Positions 12,739 to 47,995 of a stretch of 64,000 bases of DNA are shown here, one piece after another. Source of the DNA: Thermohalobaculum sediminis (GTDB taxonomy: Bacteria > Pseudomonadota > Alphaproteobacteria > Rhodobacterales > Rhodobacteraceae); the NCBI RefSeq assembly GCF_023487995.1, contig NZ_JAMFKN010000001.1:372001-436000 (forward strand), given 5' to 3'. Every line of letters begins with the position of its first letter. The stretch's first letter is position 1. The notes beneath the pieces are model-generated. The model worked only from the letters and a program-made list of their open reading frames with translations, ran no database searches and was not told the origin of the DNA. A program made the translations under genes and the position numbers.

Positions 12739-12854
12739 CCAACCCTGTTTCACTGGCCGCAGCGGGCTGCCGTTGCTAATTGGCATACCAGCAGGAGCGG
12801 CCAAGGCGCCGCGACCGGCCAACGACAGATCAATGGGAAATAGGGGAAGACGCC

Positions 12855-14054
12855 ATGAAGACCGGTTTTGCGCATCTCTTCATCCCGGGGCCGACCAACA
12901 TCCCCGAGGATGTCCGACAGGCGATGAACGTGCCCATGCAGGACATGCGCGCGCCCGACTTCGGCGACCTGACCAAGCCCCTCTTCGCGGGCCTCAAGCG
13001 CGTCTTCAAGACCGAGACCGGGCGCATCTTCATGTATCCCTCGTCGGGCACCGGCGCCTGGGAGGCGGCGATCACCAACACGCTGAACCCCGGCGACAAG
13101 GTGCTGATGAGCCGCTTCGGCCAGTTCAGCCACCTTTGGGTCGACATGGCCGAGCGCCTCGGCCTCGACGTCCACGTGATCGACTGCGAGTGGGGCACAG
13201 GCGTGCCGCTCGACGCCTACGCGCGGGTGCTCGAGGCCGACAGGACGCACGCCATCAAGGCCGTGTTCGCCACGCAGAACGAGACCGCGACGGGCGTGAC
13301 CTCGGACGTGGCGGCGGTGCGGCGCGTGCTCGACGCGGCCGGCCACCCGGCGATGCTGTTCGTCGATGGCGTGTCCTCGATCGGCTCGATCGACTTCCGC
13401 ATGGACGAGTGGGGCGTCGACCTCGCCGTGGCGGGCTCGCAGAAGGGCTTCATGCTGCCGGCGGGCCTGTCGATGCTGGGCGTCTCGCAGCGCGCGCTCG
13501 AGGCCTCCAAGACCGCGACCATGAAGCGGTGCTACTTCGACTTCGTCGACATGATGAAGGTGAACGATGATGGCTATTTCCCCTACACGCCGCCGACCCA
13601 GCTGTTCCATGGGCTGAAGGCCTCGCTCGCCCGGATCGAGCGCGAAGGGCTCGAGAACGTCTTTGCCCGCCACTACCGCCTGGCCGAGGGCGTGCGCCGC
13701 GCGGTCGATGCCTGGGGTCTCAGGCTCTGCGCCAAGGGGCCGGAGTGGCAGTCGGACACCGTGTCGGCCATCATGGTCCCCGAGGGGATCGACGCGCGCA
13801 ACGTGATCAGGGCGGGCTATGCCAAGTATTCGATCTCGTTTGGCACCGGCCTTTCCAAGGTCATGGGCAAGGTCTTCCGCATCGGCCATCTGGGCGATCT
13901 GAACGAGGGTATGTGCCTCACGGCCCTTTCGCTCGCCGAGATGTCGCTGAGGGATGCGGGCTGCCGGGTCGATCTCGGCTCGGGCGTCGGGGCCGCGCAG
14001 GCCTGGTATCTCGAGGCGCAGGAAACGGCAGCCGCGCGCCAGGCCGCCGAGTAA
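12855..14054 (+). CDS. Class V aminotransferase, glyoxylate aminotransferase family (SgaA/BhcA-like)
   Basis: This PLP enzyme transfers an amino group to glyoxylate, probably from serine or aspartate. The 399-residue protein has FIPGPTNIPEDVRQA at the start, the SSGTGAWEAAI phosphate-binding turn near 70, ATQNETATGV near 138, LFVDGVSSIGSIDF near 172, and the PLP lysine Lys197 in SQKGFM. It resembles both serine-glyoxylate aminotransferase and BhcA of the beta-hydroxyaspartate cycle. The other cycle genes (bhcB, bhcC, bhcD) are absent here, so I prefer a general glyoxylate aminotransferase. GGGGA precedes the ATG, and a strong terminator follows. Confidence 0.85.
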   Translation: MKTGFAHLFIPGPTNIPEDVRQAMNVPMQDMRAPDFGDLTKPLFAGLKRVFKTETGRIFMYPSSGTGAWEAAITNTLNPGDKVLMSRFGQFSHLWVDMAERLGLDVHVIDCEWGTGVPLDAYARVLEADRTHAIKAVFATQNETATGVTSDVAAVRRVLDAAGHPAMLFVDGVSSIGSIDFRMDEWGVDLAVAGSQKGFMLPAGLSMLGVSQRALEASKTATMKRCYFDFVDMMKVNDDGYFPYTPPTQLFHGLKASLARIEREGLENVFARHYRLAEGVRRAVDAWGLRLCAKGPEWQSDTVSAIMVPEGIDARNVIRAGYAKYSISFGTGLSKVMGKVFRIGHLGDLNEGMCLTALSLAEMSLRDAGCRVDLGSGVGAAQAWYLEAQETAAARQAAE

Positions 14055-14116
14055 CCCTCGGCGCGAACAGTCTCCCAGGCGGCGCCGGTCAAGTCCCCGA
14101 TCGGCGCCTTATCCTA

Positions 14117-14147
14117 AACCCCGGGCTTGTCCCGGGGTTCTTTTTTT
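14117..14147 (+). terminator. Rho-independent terminator of the aminotransferase gene
   Basis: The perfect arms AACCCCGGG (14117-14125) and CCCGGGGTT (14131-14139) with a CTTGT loop are followed by C and seven Ts. This is a textbook intrinsic terminator, 62 bases past the stop codon and between two convergent genes. Confidence 0.92.
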
Positions 14148-14186
14148 GTGCCATGGTTTTGTGCCATGGGCCCGTTTTCCCGCGCC

Positions 14187-14270
14187 GCCCCCGGCCTGAC
14201 CCGGGGCCTCGCCGAGCACCGCATCGTCACCCCAGGGGGGGACACGGAGACCCCGGCTCGACGGCCGGGG
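14187..14270. repeat. Two further CCCCGG hairpins between convergent genes
   Basis: GCCCCCGG and CCCGGGGC (about 14187-14207) form an imperfect hairpin. CCCCGGC (14251-14257) pairs perfectly with GCCGGGG (14264-14270). Together with the terminator at 14117 they make three related GC palindromes in 160 bases, as in REP-type intergenic elements. The rest of the 14055-14316 gap holds a short GTGCCATGG duplication and nothing else I can identify. Confidence 0.4.
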
Positions 14271-14316
14271 CAGCGCAAGCGCCGGGCGGGCGGCCCGTCG
14301 CGGCCCGTCGAAACCC

Positions 14317-15381
14317 TCAGCCCCGCACGATCCGGATGGCCCCCGAGTCCGGCCCACGCGTGCGGCGCCCCTGCTCGAGCAGCATCTCGATGGTCCACAT
14401 CACCCGCCCCACGCTGCGTGGGCGCGCGGCCCAGACCGGCTGCGGCTCGACCGCCTCCACCAGGAATCGCGTCTCGTCGAGCGGCGCGAGGCCGCGTGCG
14501 CCGGCCACCGGCAGCCGTGCGCCGAGGCTCGCTGCTGCCAGCAGTCCGAGCTTGCGCCCCCGCCCCACCACCGCCCGCGAGGCGACGGAATCGAAGCCCC
14601 GCGCCGCCACCTCGCGCCCGATCTCGCGGTAGATCAGCCGCGCCGCCGCGATCGCCGGACGGCAGTCGGCCGGCAGCATCGCGATGCCGGGGGCGGCGCG
14701 GTCATAGAGCCGCTCGGCCTCGGCCAGCAGCCGCGACACCACCTGCCCCAGCGCCGGGGCGAAGGTCGGCGCGGCGAGGAAGCGATCGGCGTCGATCCCG
14801 GCCTCGCGCAGCCACGCGCGCGGCAGGTAGAGCCGCCCGGCGCGGGCATCCTCGCCCACGTCGCGCGCGATGTTGGAAAGCTGCATGGCGCAGCCGAGAT
14901 CGCAAGCCCGCGCCAGCGCCGCGCGGTCTCGCACTCCCATCAGCAGCGTCATCATCGCGCCCACCGTGCCCGCGACACGGGCGGAATAGGCGTGGAGGTC
15001 CGCAAGCGTCTCGTATCGCCGCCCGCCCGCGAGATCCCAGGCGAGCCCTTCGATCAGCGCCTCGGGCAACGCGCGGGGGATGGCGTGGCGGGCCACGGTG
15101 TCGGCAAAGGCGCGGTCCACCGGGTGCGGCTCGGGCGCCCCCGCATAGACCCGCGCCAGCCGCTCGGACAGCCGCGCCACCGCGTCCGCCCGGCCGCCCA
15201 GGTCGACCGCATCATCCGCCGCGCGGCAGAAGGCATAGAGCGCATAGGCCGGCTGGCGCACCCGGCGCGGCAGGACCAGCGAGGCCGCGTGGAACGACTT
15301 CGAGCCATGCCGGATCATCGCGCGGCAGGCCGCGTGATCCCCGGCCGAGGCGAGGGCGAGCTCAGACCAGGCTTTGCGCAT
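14317..15381 (-). CDS. crtB: 15-cis-phytoene synthase
   Basis: CrtB joins two geranylgeranyl diphosphates into phytoene, the first committed carotenoid step. The 354-residue protein has the two aspartate-rich metal sites, DDAVD in YAFCRAADDAVDL near residue 55 and RDVGED in LSNIARDVGEDARAGRLYLP near 175, plus an N-terminal SKSFHAASLVLP. It is the last gene of the bchI-bchD-bchO-crtI-crtB run, and its start overlaps the end of crtI by 20 bases, which implies translational coupling. The product fits spheroidene- or spirilloxanthin-type carotenoid synthesis; the later genes are not in this window. Confidence 0.95.
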   Translation of the reverse strand: MRKAWSELALASAGDHAACRAMIRHGSKSFHAASLVLPRRVRQPAYALYAFCRAADDAVDLGGRADAVARLSERLARVYAGAPEPHPVDRAFADTVARHAIPRALPEALIEGLAWDLAGGRRYETLADLHAYSARVAGTVGAMMTLLMGVRDRAALARACDLGCAMQLSNIARDVGEDARAGRLYLPRAWLREAGIDADRFLAAPTFAPALGQVVSRLLAEAERLYDRAAPGIAMLPADCRPAIAAARLIYREIGREVAARGFDSVASRAVVGRGRKLGLLAAASLGARLPVAGARGLAPLDETRFLVEAVEPQPVWAARPRSVGRVMWTIEMLLEQGRRTRGPDSGAIRIVRG

Positions 15382-16891
15382 CGGGCACCATTTCGTCGAC
15401 GATCTGCGCCGAGGTCAGCACGCCCGGCACGCCCGCGCCGGGATGCGTGCCGGCGCCCACCAGATACAGCCGCTCGATCCCCTCGGCCCGGTTGTGCGGG
15501 CGGAACCACGCGGACTGGAACAGCGTGGGCTCGAGGCTGAAGCCCGCGCCCTTGAGCGACAGAAGCTCGTCATGGAAGTAGTTCGGCGTCACCACCCGCT
15601 GGCTGACGACATGCGCGCCCAGCCCCGGCAGCACGGTCTCCTCGAGCCGGGCCTGAATGCGCGCGCGGTAGCCCTCGGCCTCGGCCTGCCAGTCCACGCC
15701 GCCGTCGAGATGCGGCACCGGCGACAGGGCATAGTAGGTGTCGCAGCCCGGCGGCGCGAGCGAGGGATCGGTCGCGGTCGGGCGGTGCAGGTAGAGGCTG
15801 AAATCCTGTGCCAGCCGCTTGCGGCGGAAGATGTCGTCCAAGAGGCCCTTGTAGCGCGGCCCCAGCACCAGCGTGTGGTGGTGCACGTCCTCCCACCGCC
15901 GGTCGGTGCCGAAATACCAGACGAACAGGCCCATCGAGTAGTCGGCTGCCTCGATCTTTCGGTCGGTCCACCGCCTGCGGTGCTCGGGCCGGATCAGGTG
16001 GCGCCAGGTCCAGCCCGCATCGGCGTTCGAGACCACGATGTCGGCCGGGATCTCCTCGCCCGTCGCCAGCCGCACGCCGGTCGCCCGGCCCCGGTTGACG
16101 AGGATCTCGGCCACGTCCGCGCCCAGGCGAACCCGGTTGCCCTGCCCCTCGACCAGCCGAACCATGCCGGCGATCAATGCCCCCGTGCCACCCATCGCGA
16201 AATGCACGCCCCAGCGGCGTTCCAGCGCGAGGATCAGCAGATAGATGGCTGTCGTGCCATGCGGATTGCCACCGATCAGCAGCGGGTGGTAGCTGAACGC
16301 CACCTGCAGGCGCGGATCCCGCAGATACAGCTTGACCCCCTGCGCCACGGTCCGGTGCCCGCCGCGCGCGAGGATGCCCGGCAGCGCCCTCAGCATCGTG
16401 CGGATGCGCGAGAACTCCATCGTGCCGAGCTTGAGGAAGCCGTATCTGAACTTCTCCTCGGACGAGACCAGCAGCCGCTCGTAGCCCGCGACATCGCCGG
16501 GCGACAGGCGCGCGACCTCGGCCCGCATCTTCTCGGGATCGCCCGAGCAGTCGATATGGCTGCCGTCGTCGAAGCGGATGCGGTAGAAGGGGTCCATCGC
16601 CCGCAATTCCACGTCGTCGGAAAGGCGCTTGCCCGCCAGCGCCCACAGCTCCTCCAGCAGGTGGGGCAGGGTGATGATCGTGGGCCCGGCGTCGAAGGTG
16701 AAGCCGTCCTGCCGGAACACCCGCGCCCGACCGCCGGGGGTGTCGAGGCGCTCCAGCACGGTGACGCGATAGCCCCGCGCGCCCAGCCGGATGGCGGTGG
16801 CAAGCCCGCCGAAGCCCGAGCCGATCACCACCGCGTGGGGCTGCCTGCGCCTCAGCGCGTCGTTGGGGAGGGAGCGGTCGATGGCCGTCAT
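15362..16891 (-). CDS. crtI: Phytoene desaturase
   Basis: CrtI converts phytoene stepwise to neurosporene or lycopene, using FAD at the membrane. The 509-residue protein has the dinucleotide-binding VVIGSGFGGLATAIRL at 21-36, followed by LERLDTPGGRARVFRQDGFTFDAGPT, and the C-terminal CrtI signature LYLVGAGTHPGAGVPGV. Length is as expected. The ATG at 16891 overlaps the stop of bchO in an ATGA arrangement. The number of desaturation steps (three or four) cannot be read from the sequence. Confidence 0.95.
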   Translation of the reverse strand: MTAIDRSLPNDALRRRQPHAVVIGSGFGGLATAIRLGARGYRVTVLERLDTPGGRARVFRQDGFTFDAGPTIITLPHLLEELWALAGKRLSDDVELRAMDPFYRIRFDDGSHIDCSGDPEKMRAEVARLSPGDVAGYERLLVSSEEKFRYGFLKLGTMEFSRIRTMLRALPGILARGGHRTVAQGVKLYLRDPRLQVAFSYHPLLIGGNPHGTTAIYLLILALERRWGVHFAMGGTGALIAGMVRLVEGQGNRVRLGADVAEILVNRGRATGVRLATGEEIPADIVVSNADAGWTWRHLIRPEHRRRWTDRKIEAADYSMGLFVWYFGTDRRWEDVHHHTLVLGPRYKGLLDDIFRRKRLAQDFSLYLHRPTATDPSLAPPGCDTYYALSPVPHLDGGVDWQAEAEGYRARIQARLEETVLPGLGAHVVSQRVVTPNYFHDELLSLKGAGFSLEPTLFQSAWFRPHNRAEGIERLYLVGAGTHPGAGVPGVLTSAQIVDEMVPDAQSLV

Positions 16892-17841
16892 TGGCGTGCC
16901 TTCTCGTTGGTGTCCGCGTCCTCGCGGGCATCCGGGCCGCCGCCGCCTTGCGGTCGCGTCGTGCCCGCTGCGGCCTCGGCGATCAGGGCGAGGGCGCGCG
17001 CGGGGTCTTCCTCGTGCGCGAGATGCCCAAGGCCCGGCAGCGCCACCACCCGCGCGCCGGGCACCCGGGCCGCGATCTCGCGCGCCTCGGCAGGGTCGAC
17101 GGCACGGTCGGCCGTGCCCACCGCCAGCGTCAGCGGCGGGCCGAGGCGCGGCAGGTCCGCGACGAGGGGCGCGAGGTCCCAGCTCGCCATCATCCGCAGC
17201 GCCGCCGCGACATGGCCCGGTGCCCGGATCAGCCGGCGGTAGAGCGCGAGGCCCGCGGGGTCGAGCCGCGAGCCGGTGCCGAGGATCAGCCGCTCGATCG
17301 AGGCAGGGTCGGTCACCGCTCCCAGCGCGAAGAAGCGCGGCGCGATCGGGTTGAGCACCAGGAGCCGCGCGAGCGGCGGGAACACCTGCCCCGCCATCCC
17401 CTTGAACGGCAGGAAGGCGCCGTTGAAGGCAACAACGGCGCCCGGCGCGATGCGGCCGTCCAGCGCCATGCGGCAGAGGATCGCCGCCCCCGCGGAATGC
17501 CCCACCGCCAGCGCAGGCGAAGCACCCAGCGCGCCCAGCAGCTCGCCGAGGAGCCGCGACATGCCCGGCAGCGACAGCCCGCCTACCGGCGGCGTCTGCG
17601 TGAAGCCATGCCCCGGCAGGTCGGGCACGATCACCCGGAAGCGGCGCGAGAGCGGCCCGAACAGGTCGCGCCAGCTCATGCCCGCGGCGCCCGTGCCGTG
17701 CGCCATGAGCAGGTCCGGCCCCTCGCCCGCCACCTGCACGTGCCACTCGAGCCCGCCCGCGCGAATGAAACGGCTGGCGTCCGAATGCGGCCAGCGGCTG
17801 CGCTCGCGGGTCCAGTCGGGCTTGCCGGGCGAGAACATCAT
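16888..17841 (-). CDS. bchO: BchO, alpha/beta hydrolase of the magnesium chelatase operon
   Basis: The 317-residue protein has an alpha/beta-hydrolase fold with a LMAHGTGAAGMSWRDL oxyanion region, the nucleophile elbow VGHSAGAA, a GTADRAVDPAEA acid region and a GLGHLAHEE histidine near the end. BchO homologues nearly always follow bchD and are called magnesium chelatase accessory proteins, but their reaction is unproven. The ATG at 17841 (a second one follows at 17838) lies ten bases past the bchD stop, with GAGGGG before it; the longer frame would run into bchD. The stop overlaps the crtI start. Confidence 0.9.
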   Translation of the reverse strand: MMFSPGKPDWTRERSRWPHSDASRFIRAGGLEWHVQVAGEGPDLLMAHGTGAAGMSWRDLFGPLSRRFRVIVPDLPGHGFTQTPPVGGLSLPGMSRLLGELLGALGASPALAVGHSAGAAILCRMALDGRIAPGAVVAFNGAFLPFKGMAGQVFPPLARLLVLNPIAPRFFALGAVTDPASIERLILGTGSRLDPAGLALYRRLIRAPGHVAAALRMMASWDLAPLVADLPRLGPPLTLAVGTADRAVDPAEAREIAARVPGARVVALPGLGHLAHEEDPARALALIAEAAAGTTRPQGGGGPDAREDADTNEKARQ

Positions 17842-17851
17842 CGCGCGCCCC

Positions 17852-19618
17852 TCATCCGGCCGGCGAGGCGGCGCGAACGGCGTCGCTGAGCCGCCGGGCG
17901 TCGGCCCGCGGCAGGGCAAGATAGCTCGCGCCCATCGCCCCCGCGATGGCGCGGGCCTCCGGCGCCGGGCGGGGCGAGGTGTCGATCAGGATCGAGCTCA
18001 CGCCATCGGCCCTGAGGCGCCGGGCCGCGGCCTGCGCCTCCTCGGCCGCGCGGGAACGCCCGCCCGCCCCGTCGCGCGCAACATTGGCCTTGCCGTCGGT
18101 CAGCACCACCACCACCGGCGTCTGCCCGCGCCGCGCCACCGCCCCCGCCACCTCGGCCGCCGCGTCGAGCGCCGCGGCGAGCGGCGTGCCGCCGCCGCCC
18201 GGCAGGCCCGCGAGGCTGCGCTTGGCACGCAAGAGCGAGCGGGTCGGCGGCAGGACCAGCTCGGCCCCCTGCCCCCGGAAGCTGATCAGCGCCACGTGGT
18301 CGCGCCGCCGGTAGGCCTCGGCCAGCATCAGCTCCACCGCCCCCTTGGCCTCGGCGAGCCGCGCGAGCGCCGAAGAGCCCGAGGCGTCCACCACGAACAG
18401 CGTCGTCGTCTCGGCCCGCTCGCGGAAGCGGCGGATGCGGAAGTCGTCGCGTCGCACCTCGATGAGCGCGCCGCCCGCGCGCTGGCGCAGCGGCTGCCAG
18501 GGCGCCGCCGCCCGCAGCGTGTCGATGAGCGCGAGCCGCGCGCCGCCCCTCGGCTCGCCCCGCCGGGCGCCGAGCGGCCGGCCCCGCAGGACCGAGGAAC
18601 GCACCTGCCCCGCCTTGCCCTGCCCGCCGCCCGGCCGCGCCGCACCGGCGCGCAGCCGGTCGAGCACCCCCTCGGGCAGCGCCGCCTCGACGGCCGCGAG
18701 CAGGATCTCGTCGAGCGGCGGCAGGGGGCGCGCGTCGTCCTCGGTGGCCGCTTCGGGCGGGCTCTCGGGCTCGGGCGCCTCGTCGGGCGGCGGCGCGGTC
18801 TCCTCCGGCGCGGGCAGGCACGTGGCGCGCGGCGCGAGCACCAGCTGCACGGCGAGCGCAAGGTCCGTCTCCTCCACCGCCGCGCGACCGTCGAGCGCGG
18901 CGAGCGCACGGGCCGCGCGCAGCGCCATCTGCGGCGCGCGCAGCGATCCGATGCCCAGCACCGCCGCGGTGGCGCAGAGCGCCTCGACCATCCCCTCGCC
19001 CGCCGCGACCGACGCGAGACGCGCGCGCGCGGCATCGATCTCGGCCCGGCCATGCTCGGGCGGCGCGAGATCGCGGATCGAGACGGCCCCGAGATCGAGC
19101 CAGAAGCCCAGCCGGTCGGTCAGCGCAGCGGCCGGCGCCTCGTCCGCCGCGATCCCCTCGTCGAGCGCCACGACCCCCAGCCGCGCTGCATGGCGTGCGC
19201 GCAGCCCCTCGCGCTCGATGCGGATCGCCCCCTCGTCGAGCGCGGCGGCAAGATGCGCCACCACGCTGCGCGGCAACCGCTCGGCGCCCGGCAGGATCAG
19301 GAGCCCGCCATCAGCCTCGGCGATCAGCCCGGCCTGCCCCACCGGCCGCCCCGCCGCCAGCGTCGCCGCGAGATCGAGCCCACCGAGCAGCCGGTCCTCG
19401 CCCACTCCCAGCGGAACCCGCCGCCAGGGCGCGCCCTCGGGGCAGAGGCGCCGCAGGTGGTCGAGGAAGGCATCGCGCGCAGGGCCCGGCAGCGCGCGCA
19501 GCCGCACGCCGCCCAGTCCGTGGGGATCGACCGCGAGCACCGTGGCGGCGAGGATCGCGAAGCCCCAGGCGGCGGCTCCGCCGCCGTCCCCGGGCTCGCC
19601 TGCCGCCATGTCGCGCAT
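17852..19618 (-). CDS. bchD: Magnesium chelatase subunit D
   Basis: BchD forms a double ring with BchI and helps BchH insert Mg2+ into protoporphyrin IX for bacteriochlorophyll. The 588-residue protein starts with an AAA+-like module that has lost a clear Walker A motif, as is usual for BchD. It continues with an acidic proline-rich linker (about 265-300, PPPDEAPEPESPPEA) and ends in a von Willebrand A domain with the MIDAS motif DASGS near 395 and VVVVLTDGKANVA. The ATG at 19618 is 15 bases after bchI; a second ATG at 19609 is possible. Confidence 0.95.
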   Translation of the reverse strand: MRDMAAGEPGDGGGAAAWGFAILAATVLAVDPHGLGGVRLRALPGPARDAFLDHLRRLCPEGAPWRRVPLGVGEDRLLGGLDLAATLAAGRPVGQAGLIAEADGGLLILPGAERLPRSVVAHLAAALDEGAIRIEREGLRARHAARLGVVALDEGIAADEAPAAALTDRLGFWLDLGAVSIRDLAPPEHGRAEIDAARARLASVAAGEGMVEALCATAAVLGIGSLRAPQMALRAARALAALDGRAAVEETDLALAVQLVLAPRATCLPAPEETAPPPDEAPEPESPPEAATEDDARPLPPLDEILLAAVEAALPEGVLDRLRAGAARPGGGQGKAGQVRSSVLRGRPLGARRGEPRGGARLALIDTLRAAAPWQPLRQRAGGALIEVRRDDFRIRRFRERAETTTLFVVDASGSSALARLAEAKGAVELMLAEAYRRRDHVALISFRGQGAELVLPPTRSLLRAKRSLAGLPGGGGTPLAAALDAAAEVAGAVARRGQTPVVVVLTDGKANVARDGAGGRSRAAEEAQAAARRLRADGVSSILIDTSPRPAPEARAIAGAMGASYLALPRADARRLSDAVRAASPAG

Positions 19619-19633
19619 CGCGCCCTGCCCCTC

Positions 19634-20647
19634 TCAGGCGCCGAGCAGGTCGGCCACCGCGCGCTCGACCCGCACCGTCGAGCCGGTGTCGTCGAGCGGG
19701 TTGCGCCGCAGCCGGTGCCTCAGCGCCATCGGCGCCACGCGGCGCAGGTGGCTGTCGGTCACGCGCCCGGCCCCTTCGAGCGCCGCGAGCGCCCGTGCCG
19801 CCCGGATCAGCGTGAGTTCCCCCCGCAGCCCGTCGGTGCCAAGACCGATGCAAAGCTCGGCCGACCGCTCGCGCATCGGATCGGGCACCTCGACCCCACC
19901 CAGCCGGGCCCGCGCGGACAGGATGCGTCGGCCGCATTCCGCGTCCTCGCCCGCCCAGCGGGCGGTGAACCCCTCGGGGTCACGCTCGAAGGCATCGCGG
20001 CGGCGGACCACCTCGATCCGCGTGGGCACGTCGCCGGGTGTGCGCACCTCGACCGCGAGGCCGAAGCGGTCGAGCAACTGCGGGCGAAGTTCGCCTTCCT
20101 CGGGGTTGCCCGAGCCGACCAGCACGAATCGCGCCGGGTGCCGCACGGAAAGACCCTCCCGCTCGACCACGTTCTCGCCCGAGGCCGCGACGTCGAGCAG
20201 CAGGTCCACCAGGTGATCTTCCAGCAGGTTCACCTCGTCGATATACAGAAACCCGCGATGCGCGCGCGCCAGCAGCCCCGGCTCGAACGCCTTCTCGCCC
20301 GTCGTCAGGGCGCGCTCGAGGTCCAGCGCACCCACCACGCGGTCCTCGGTCGCCCCCAGCGGCAGGTCGACCACCGGCACCGGGACGTCCACCGCTTCCG
20401 CCGCGCCCCCGGCACAGGCGGGACAGAACGACGTGGGCGCGTCCGGGTCGCAGTTGAAGCGGCAGCCCCTGATCGCGCGCATTGGCGGCAACAGCGCCGC
20501 GAGCGCCCGAATCGTGGTCGATTTGCCGGTGCCGCGATCGCCGAAGGCCAGCACGCCGCCGATCGCGGGCTCGACCGCGGCGATCAGCAGCGCGTCCTTC
20601 ATCTCCTGCTGTCCCACGATGGCCGAGAATGGGAAGAGTGCAGGCAT
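19634..20647 (-). CDS. bchI: Magnesium chelatase ATPase subunit I
   Basis: BchI is the AAA+ motor of magnesium chelatase. The 337-residue protein has FPFSAIVGQQEMK at the start, Walker A GDRGTGKST at about 36-44, Walker B FLYIDEVNLL near 133, sensor 1 VLVGSGNPEEG and an arginine-finger region around LRPQLLDRFGL. The length fits the family. It is the first gene of the operon, and a PpsR-like operator and promoter lie just upstream. In many Rhodobacterales crtA precedes bchI; here gshA is on the other side instead. Confidence 0.97.
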   Translation of the reverse strand: MPALFPFSAIVGQQEMKDALLIAAVEPAIGGVLAFGDRGTGKSTTIRALAALLPPMRAIRGCRFNCDPDAPTSFCPACAGGAAEAVDVPVPVVDLPLGATEDRVVGALDLERALTTGEKAFEPGLLARAHRGFLYIDEVNLLEDHLVDLLLDVAASGENVVEREGLSVRHPARFVLVGSGNPEEGELRPQLLDRFGLAVEVRTPGDVPTRIEVVRRRDAFERDPEGFTARWAGEDAECGRRILSARARLGGVEVPDPMRERSAELCIGLGTDGLRGELTLIRAARALAALEGAGRVTDSHLRRVAPMALRHRLRRNPLDDTGSTVRVERAVADLLGA

Positions 20648-20690
20648 ATCGGACCCCCGTCCTCTGCGCCGGCCAGCCGCCCGCGCGAAG

Positions 20691-20708
20691 CGTCAACTTG
20701 AATTGACA
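20691..20708 (-). promoter_or_regulatory. PpsR/CrtJ-like operator of the bchI operon
   Basis: Read on the minus strand the site is TGTCAATTCAAGTTGACG, that is TGT-N12-AC followed by G. It differs by one base from the PpsR/CrtJ consensus TGT-N12-ACA and has near-symmetric half-sites TGTCAA and TTGACG. PpsR represses bch and crt promoters in air and high light. The site lies 44-61 bases before the bchI ATG and overlaps the predicted start of transcription, a position suited to repression. Only one copy is evident. Confidence 0.75.
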
Positions 20709-20734
20709 GTCTAGCATTCAATTTTTCCAGACAA
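20708..20734 (-). promoter_or_regulatory. Candidate promoter of the bchI-crtB operon
   Basis: On the minus strand TTGTCT is followed after 15 bases by TAGACT (20708-20713), a fair -10 match; an alternative -35 TTGTTG gives 18 bases spacing. The -10 element touches the PpsR-like site. This is pattern matching only. Confidence 0.35.
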
Positions 20735-20887
20735 CAAGTGCCGCGATCCTGTCACCCGCGGCGAGGGTGCAATCCGTCTCACATCAAGATTTCGTGTGCG
20801 CCCGTCCCCGCAACTGCGGGCTTGCCGCGCGACGCCCCCTCGATTACGTCCCGCGAGGTTCGAGAGGCGGCGAGAGAGGGAAGCCCG

Positions 20888-22252
20888 ATGTCGATCCCGC
20901 AGCAGGGTGGCGGTCCCGTCGAGGGTGTCGAGGATCTCGTCGGCTGGATGGCCGCGGGCTGCAAGCCGCGGGATGCCTGGCGCATCGGCACCGAGCACGA
21001 GAAGTTCGGCTATGACAAGGCGGCCCTGAAACCCCTGCCCTACGAGGGCGCGTGTTCGGTCAGGGCGATGCTCGAAGGCTTGCGCGACCGCTTCGGCTGG
21101 GCGCCGGTGCTCGAGCAGGGCAACATCATCGGCCTGACCAAGGACGGCGCGAACGTGTCCCTGGAACCAGGCGGCCAGTTGGAGCTGTCGGGCGCGCCGC
21201 TCGAGACGATCCACCAGACCTGCGACGAGGTGAACGCGCATCTGGCCGAGGTGAAGGCCGTGGCCGACGCGATCGGCGCGGGCTTCATCGGGCTCGGCGC
21301 CGCGCCCATCTGGCGGCACGAGGACATGGACCGGATGCCCAAGGGGCGCTACCGGCTGATGACCGCCTACATGGGCCGGGTCGGCACGCATGGCACGCAG
21401 ATGATGTATCGCACCTGCACCGTGCAGGTGAACCTCGACTTCGCCTCGGAAGCCGACATGGTCAAGAAGCTGCGCGTCTCGCTGGCGCTCCAGCCGCTCG
21501 CGACCGCGCTGTTCGCCAATTCGCCGTTCTTCGAGGGCAAGCCCAACGGGTTCCTCAGCTGGCGCTCGCGCATCTGGCGCGACCTCGACCCGGCGCGGAC
21601 CGGCACGCTGCCCTTCGCCTTCGAGGACGGCATGGGCTTCGAGCGCTATGTGGACTACGCGCTCGATGTGCCGATGTATTTCGTCTACCGCGACGGCAAG
21701 TACATCGACGCGCTGGGCCAGTCGTTCCGCGACTTCATGGCCGGTCGCCTGCCCGCCCTGCCGGGCGAGAAGCCCACGCTGGGCGACTGGGCCGACCACC
21801 TGACGACGCTGTTCCCCGAGGCGCGCGTCAAGCGCTTCATCGAGATGCGCGGCGCCGATGGTGGCCCGTGGCGCAGGCTGTGCGCGCTGCCGGCGCTGTG
21901 GGTCGGGCTGCTCTACGACGACACCGCGCTCGACGCCGCGTGGCAGATGGCGAAGGACTGGACGGCCGAGGAGCGCGAGCAGCTTCGCATCGACGCCTCG
22001 CGCCAGGGGCTGAAGGCCACGATCCGCGGGCGCAGCCTGCAGGACATCGCGAAGGAAGCGCTGGGCATCGCGCGGGCCGGCCTCGCCGCACGGGCCCGCG
22101 CGCAGGGCTTCGACCGGGACGAGACGCACTTCCTCAACGCGCTGCACGAGATCGCCGACAGCGGCGTGACCCCGGCCGAGGAACTGCTCGCCCGCTACCA
22201 TGGCGACTGGAAGGGCGATCTGAGCCGCATCTACGCGGAATATTCCTACTGA
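20888..22252 (+). CDS. gshA: Glutamate-cysteine ligase, plant/alphaproteobacterial class
   Basis: The enzyme makes gamma-glutamylcysteine, the first step of glutathione synthesis. The 454-residue protein begins with a short helix and the conserved WRIGTEHEKFGYD near 32-44, then VSLEPGGQLELSGAP near 91, YMGRVGTHGTQMMYRTCTVQVNLDF near 160-185, and FANSPFFEGKPNGFLSWRSRIW near 215. This is the class 3 ligase of plants and Proteobacteria. The ATG at 20888 follows a purine-rich GAGAGGGAAGC. It is transcribed divergently from the bchI operon, so its promoter lies next to the PpsR-like site. Confidence 0.95.
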   Translation: MSIPQQGGGPVEGVEDLVGWMAAGCKPRDAWRIGTEHEKFGYDKAALKPLPYEGACSVRAMLEGLRDRFGWAPVLEQGNIIGLTKDGANVSLEPGGQLELSGAPLETIHQTCDEVNAHLAEVKAVADAIGAGFIGLGAAPIWRHEDMDRMPKGRYRLMTAYMGRVGTHGTQMMYRTCTVQVNLDFASEADMVKKLRVSLALQPLATALFANSPFFEGKPNGFLSWRSRIWRDLDPARTGTLPFAFEDGMGFERYVDYALDVPMYFVYRDGKYIDALGQSFRDFMAGRLPALPGEKPTLGDWADHLTTLFPEARVKRFIEMRGADGGPWRRLCALPALWVGLLYDDTALDAAWQMAKDWTAEEREQLRIDASRQGLKATIRGRSLQDIAKEALGIARAGLAARARAQGFDRDETHFLNALHEIADSGVTPAEELLARYHGDWKGDLSRIYAEYSY

Positions 22253-47899: not shown

Positions 47900-47995
47900 C
47901 CGCCGCACGCGTCTGGACAGGCGCCGCCCCCGCGCCATAGTCTCGACACGCGCCCGGATTTCGCCGGGCGCGGCATTCTGACAGGATTATTCGAC

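Follow-up and report, generated by a model that had tools for sequence, protein, structure and literature searches.

A predicted tandem PpsR operator in front of the bchI-crtB genes of Thermohalobaculum sediminis, with gshA as a probable bystander

The bchI-gshA locus

The window analysed here, a 64-kb stretch of the T. sediminis (host) genome, carries five photosynthesis genes on its minus strand whose neighbours overlap or lie no more than 15 nt apart. The first is bchI (19634-20647; Mg-chelatase ATPase subunit I; TIGR02030, 517.6 bits), followed by bchD (17852-19618; Mg-chelatase subunit D; NF009943, 760 bits), bchO (16888-17841 with the start chosen here; TIGR03056, 305 bits), crtI (15362-16891; phytoene desaturase; TIGR02734, 618 bits), which shares an ATGA overlap with bchO, and crtB (14317-15381; phytoene synthase), whose NF045921 match of 404 bits is below the cut-off of 500 and whose product is similar to CrtB of R. 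litoralis. On the plus strand lies gshA (20888-22252; glutamate-cysteine ligase; TIGR01436, 675 bits), whose ATG at 20888 is the start conserved in relatives.

The 240-bp gap that separates the bchI ATG from the gshA ATG (20648-20887) contains two palindromes. The stronger one, at 20691-20708, reads CGTCAACTTGAATTGACA on the plus strand and TGTCAATTCAAGTTGACG on the minus strand. The first-pass annotation gave exactly this 18-mer and position, and also noted a single mismatch to TGT-N12-ACA; the mismatch is a C for T at position 1. A weaker partner that it missed, ATTCAATTTTTCCAGACA (minus strand TGTCTGGAAAAATTGAAT), occupies 20716-20733. The pair ends 43 nt before the bchI ATG, and the corresponding distances at host bchC and crtE are 49 and 51 nt. 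On the other side, 154 nt (20734-20887) lead to the gshA ATG, which would leave room for a separate gshA promoter.

The candidate promoter of bchI coincides with the pair. A putative -10 element, TAGACT (20708-20713, minus strand), lies within GCTAGACTG, a sequence common to host bchC, and CTAGACTG is common to host crtD/crtE. A scan of 20600-20950 for consensus sigma-70 promoters and terminators found nothing in either direction, and an Rfam search of 20500-21050 with E values up to 0.1 gave no match.

A strong palindrome with a weak partner

A TGT-N12-ACA motif with one mismatch is weak evidence for any single site because the window contains 93 of them (mean 65, s.d. 7.5 in shuffled sequence), and we discarded it as proof of an operator. 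Among longer forms, TGTCA-N8-TGACA with at most one mismatch matches the window only at the strong site (0.34 expected), and at least one match occurs in 30 of the shuffles too. TGTCAA-N6-TTGACA with up to three mismatches occurs four times (3.3 expected), with a single mismatch only at the strong site.

Given how weak the short motif is, an independent test was built from a symmetric matrix of 149 hits in 77 crtA-crtI intergenic regions of family members, the host genome being unused. These regions, obtainable from 77 of 80 family bchI loci, contain recurrent sites such as TGTCAGACTAAGTTGACA. The matrix assigns at least 12.5 bits to 14 of 15 published R. sphaeroides ChIP motifs, RSP_2095 scoring 7.0; the R. 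sphaeroides crtI motif may be part of the training set, as an identical 18-mer is present in one family locus (L137). By this measure the strong site scores 23.9 bits and ranks first of all positions in the 64 kb, followed by two further positions at 12.6 bits. Neither the 5000 shuffles made of the gap nor the 100 made of the window produced a score of 23.9 bits. Apart from its initial C, the site carries the TGT-N12-ACA core of PpsR/CrtJ operators in the extended form TGTcaN8tgACA. A C-initial site detected by ChIP at R. sphaeroides prrA, CGTCAAAGGAAGTTGACA, is listed in Table 2 of PMC4344238, and its matrix score is 16.0 bits. The strong site is thus very probably a genuine, ordinary PpsR binding site.

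The weak palindrome lies 7 nt from the strong one, in a 25-bp register, and is degenerate, with one half-site lacking TGT. When 20709-20887 was shuffled 5000 times, 4 of the sequences equalled or exceeded its 12.6 bits; shuffling only the AT-rich part 20709-20745 gave 22 of 5000. Both tests are post hoc, made once the palindrome had been found. A second palindrome at 7-8 nt, as in the bchC class, is optional for PpsR sites; palindromes spaced by seven or eight nucleotides are described for Congregibacter litoralis (PMC2654016). The same strong-plus-weak layout is found in four of seven host operators compared: at bchI (23.9 + 12.6 bits, 25-bp register), bchC (27.3 + 14.6 bits, 26-bp register), crtD/crtE (27.0 + 12.8 bits, 26-bp register) and bchG (21.0 bits, with partners of 13.9 at -30 and 13.8 at +22). 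The remaining three, at bchF, bchE and a B12-binding gene, have no such partner. A comparable partner occurs at 0.13% of 20,000 random window positions.

Among the closest known counterparts is the R. capsulatus bchC operator, in which a pair of 18-bp palindromes covers the promoter. Their spacing is 8 bp, compared with 7 nt in the host, and they are described as bound by CrtJ/PpsR cooperatively (PMC6199135) and with unequal affinity (PMC6199135, PMC5362033), to which the unequal scores would correspond. The host pair differs in that it precedes bchI, has a degenerate partner and is predicted from sequence.

PpsR sites are not universal in front of bchI. Among named bchI loci, 24 of 76 (four of the 80 being too short) have a site of at least 16 bits within 300 bp before the gene, whereas all 76 control stretches taken 3′ of it lack one. 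In the family genome nearest to the host by BchI (G083, L080), a 16.7-bit site lies 87 nt before bchI. The full order in which crtB-crtI diverges from crtA-bchI-bchD-bchO occurs in 66 of the 80 family loci, and the host order bchI-bchD-bchO-crtI-crtB in 13 of the 80 named loci (L004, L006, L008, L046, L047, L051, L055, L058, L060, L064, L067, L070 and L082). In four of these 13 (L046, L047, L060 and L064) the region before bchI contains a site that exceeds 10 bits, and in the other nine it contains none, L058 offering only about 50 bp. Aestuariivirga litoralis (L046) and an uncultured member of the Rhodospirillales (L064) thus share the host order, but gshA was not found at any of the 13 loci, whereas host bchI adjoins it.

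gshA as a neighbour of the operator

The first-pass annotation also proposed that PpsR affects gshA and so links bacteriochlorophyll synthesis to thiol supply. We find nothing beyond proximity in favour of this effect, and no sign so far that gshA responds. Of 64 other gshA genes found, 58 were fetched, including 33 whose genomes also carry bchI. The best PpsR score upstream of these genes is 14.9 bits (L185, from genome G016, which lacks bchI), the next is 8.7, and only one of the 58 regions therefore exceeds 10 bits, although this single site scores higher than the weak partner in the window. Table 2 of PMC4344238 does not name gshA among PpsR ChIP targets, a comparison that covers R. sphaeroides only. 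Among the literature matches listed, none combines gshA with PpsR or bchI; one that brings together gshA and bacteriochlorophyll (PMC6069883) has selenite as its subject.

Several observations could nevertheless be read as signs that PpsR bound at 20691-20733 represses gshA as well, with glutathione synthesis tracking pigment synthesis. The two genes have one 240-bp gap in common, a TTGACA on the gshA strand lies within the strong site, and the divergent host genes crtD and crtE are served by a single tandem pair. Likewise, a single ChIP site is reported for crtEF and crtCD of R. sphaeroides, and mutation of ppsR altered the expression of both (PMC4344238). However, the pair is 154 nt away from the gshA ATG, no -10 element fits the TTGACA, the other gshA genes and the R. 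sphaeroides targets offer no parallel, and shutting down a thiol enzyme in air would presumably be disadvantageous. We therefore regard joint control as very unlikely and gshA as a probable bystander.

Among the loci compared, the neighbourhood itself is peculiar to the host. No gshA lies next to bchI, up to 5 kb upstream, in 80 family bchI loci taken from the 164 genomes with bchI among 394, and the 80 named bchI loci have no gshA match in flanks of up to 6 kb, often shorter. Conversely, the other five window proteins searched have no match in the 58 gshA loci, with flanks of up to about 1.5 kb, and among the loci examined bchI adjoins gshA in the host genome only. In 40 of the 58 loci a C-terminal motif, which we take to be that of RsmE, is encoded upstream of gshA on the same strand.

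Within the genus, bchI is present in one of five genomes. Unaligned upstream regions of gshA from two congeners (G394 and G396) show no similarity to that of the host visible by eye. In G396, which lacks bchI, the order at gshA (L255) is o10911, a bhcA-like aminotransferase gene, an interval of 5.4 kb, gshA, a gene for a TPP enzyme and o25865, which matches the surroundings in the window. The 5.4 kb contain a CitE/malyl-CoA-lyase-like gene, malate-CoA ligase beta, a succinate-CoA-ligase-alpha-type gene, a zinc dehydrogenase gene and a polyketide-cyclase-like gene. In the host, the crtB-crtI-bchO-bchD-bchI segment stands between the bhcA-like aminotransferase gene and gshA (12780-20888). Because the flanking gene order matches, the photosynthesis segment occupies the place of the 5.4-kb interval, through either gain in the host or loss in the congeners.

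Two side observations concern these genomes. The best host match to the CitE/malyl-CoA-lyase-like protein of G396, at C42:139303-140388 (L259), is 51% identical and has one in-frame TGA. Another genome of the genus (G338, 99% complete) has no gshA match at E 1e-100; the gene may be absent there, or a different enzyme may serve in its place.

The host PpsR and a model for the operon

The host encodes its own PpsR (C43:88936-90261; TIGR02040, 493 bits), the only protein above the family cut-off in the genome, and its helix-turn-helix (HTH), AAEMLGLSRQSLYVKLR, is identical to that of R. litoralis PpsR over 17 residues. These findings support the first-pass assignment of a PpsR/CrtJ-type operator to the likely start of the bchI-crtB unit. 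The ppsR gene lies within a photosynthesis cluster of about 39 kb on contig C43 rather than on the bchI contig, the host photosynthesis genes being split between C11 and C43. On C43, PpsR sites are found at crtD/crtE, bchC, bchE (TIGR02026), bchF, a B12-binding gene just before ppsR, and bchG.

Genome-wide, 42 host sites lie within one mismatch of TGTMAN8TKACA; 41 were scored, and the remaining one has the sequence of a scored site. Seven reach at least 20 bits, a cut picked once the scores had been seen, and these comprise five C43 photosynthesis promoters, the bchI site and C2:50622. Scores of 16-20 bits are not specific, because four unannotated sites, C39:164003 (19.8), C2:110855 (18.3), C32:96946 (17.6) and C39:318445 (16.3), are in the range of host bchE (18.0). 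Beside the C2:50622 site (L210; 22.9 bits), which is outside the main cluster, are a gene of the FrhB/FdhB family and a B12-binding gene that matches AppA-SCHIC weakly. The FrhB/FdhB family includes BciB-type 8-vinyl reductases.

Besides the operator pair and position 47979, no window position exceeds 8.2 bits, so crtI and crtB are probably controlled through the bchI operator. Their R. sphaeroides counterparts, with bchI, bchD and bchO, are PpsR targets according to Table 2 of PMC4344238. In that species crtA precedes bchIDO and crtIB diverges from them, whereas the host has crtI-crtB downstream of bchO in the same orientation, crtA on C43 and gshA as the divergent neighbour. Judged by its sequence, the site at the bchI operon is a predicted PpsR operator of known kind.

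Taken together, we assign a probability of about 88% to the reading that 20691-20733 is a tandem PpsR operator in the promoter of bchI-bchD-bchO-crtI-crtB, with gshA as a bystander. PpsR encoded on C43 would probably bind both palindromes cooperatively and block RNA polymerase at bchI, and Mg-chelatase and the first carotenoid enzymes would remain repressed until relief by an antirepressor, perhaps the PpaA/AerR-like, B12-binding product of the gene immediately preceding ppsR. The gshA gene would most likely be transcribed from its own promoter in 20734-20887.

Binding need not entail control. In R. sphaeroides, RSP_3000 is reported as bound at a strong motif with unchanged expression (PMC4344238), a motif to which our matrix gives 21.9 bits, and of the 108 CrtJ peaks reported for R. 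capsulatus under aerobic conditions, 101 had no accompanying change in expression (PMC5362033). A PpsR bound here while bchI is governed otherwise is nonetheless very unlikely, as the site belongs to a photosynthesis operon, a setting in which bound sites tend to be active, and as its distance from the ATG is like those of host bchC and crtE. That the palindrome is a chance motif in an AT-rich promoter region, or the site of another regulator, is extremely unlikely, since the TTGACA within it, the AT-rich 45 bp around it in a GC-rich genome and the shuffles that match TGTCA-N8-TGACA are outweighed by a matrix score that no shuffle reached and by motifs identical in kind at host photosynthesis promoters.

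The first-pass annotation described the repressor as redox-sensing, which is doubtful for the host protein. In an alignment of 30 PpsRs (the host, R. litoralis and 28 family genomes), a column beside the HTH has Cys in 29 and Tyr in the host; from its place, this column probably corresponds to C420 of CrtJ, a protein outside the alignment. C420 is described as the redox-active cysteine of the CrtJ DNA-binding domain (PMC5362033). In a wider set the column has Cys in 55 of 59 sequences, and the other three Tyr belong to both copies of one genome (L297 and L316) and one of two copies of another (L315). A second column, which may correspond to C249 of the likewise unaligned CrtJ, has Cys in 26 of the 30 and Val in the host. 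This second loss says less, because only 1 of 29 class-level rows has Cys there. The host PpsR would thus carry neither cysteine of the CrtJ C249/C420 type. Its open frame spans C43 88816-90285 (L002, L204 and L205) and encodes both Tyr and Val, the Tyr codon being read from a draft genome in which a single-base error is possible. A further reading, which is highly improbable, is that displacement of the photosynthesis segment set gshA beside a PpsR operator in a lineage whose PpsR has neither of the cysteines retained by most of the family. Glutathione supply, along with pigment synthesis, would then follow a light- or B12-type signal acting through the PpaA/AerR-like protein and not through a redox switch of cysteines.

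A link between thiols and pigments would matter only if gshA really responds. The tandem operator predicted here, which precedes bchI-bchD-bchO-crtI-crtB, would add a clean further example of PpsR operators. Of greater interest is that a PpsR from this family lacks the conserved cysteine of the DNA-binding domain, and this Tyr-bearing repressor could be used to test what share of PpsR control is due to the cysteine switch and what share to antirepressors.
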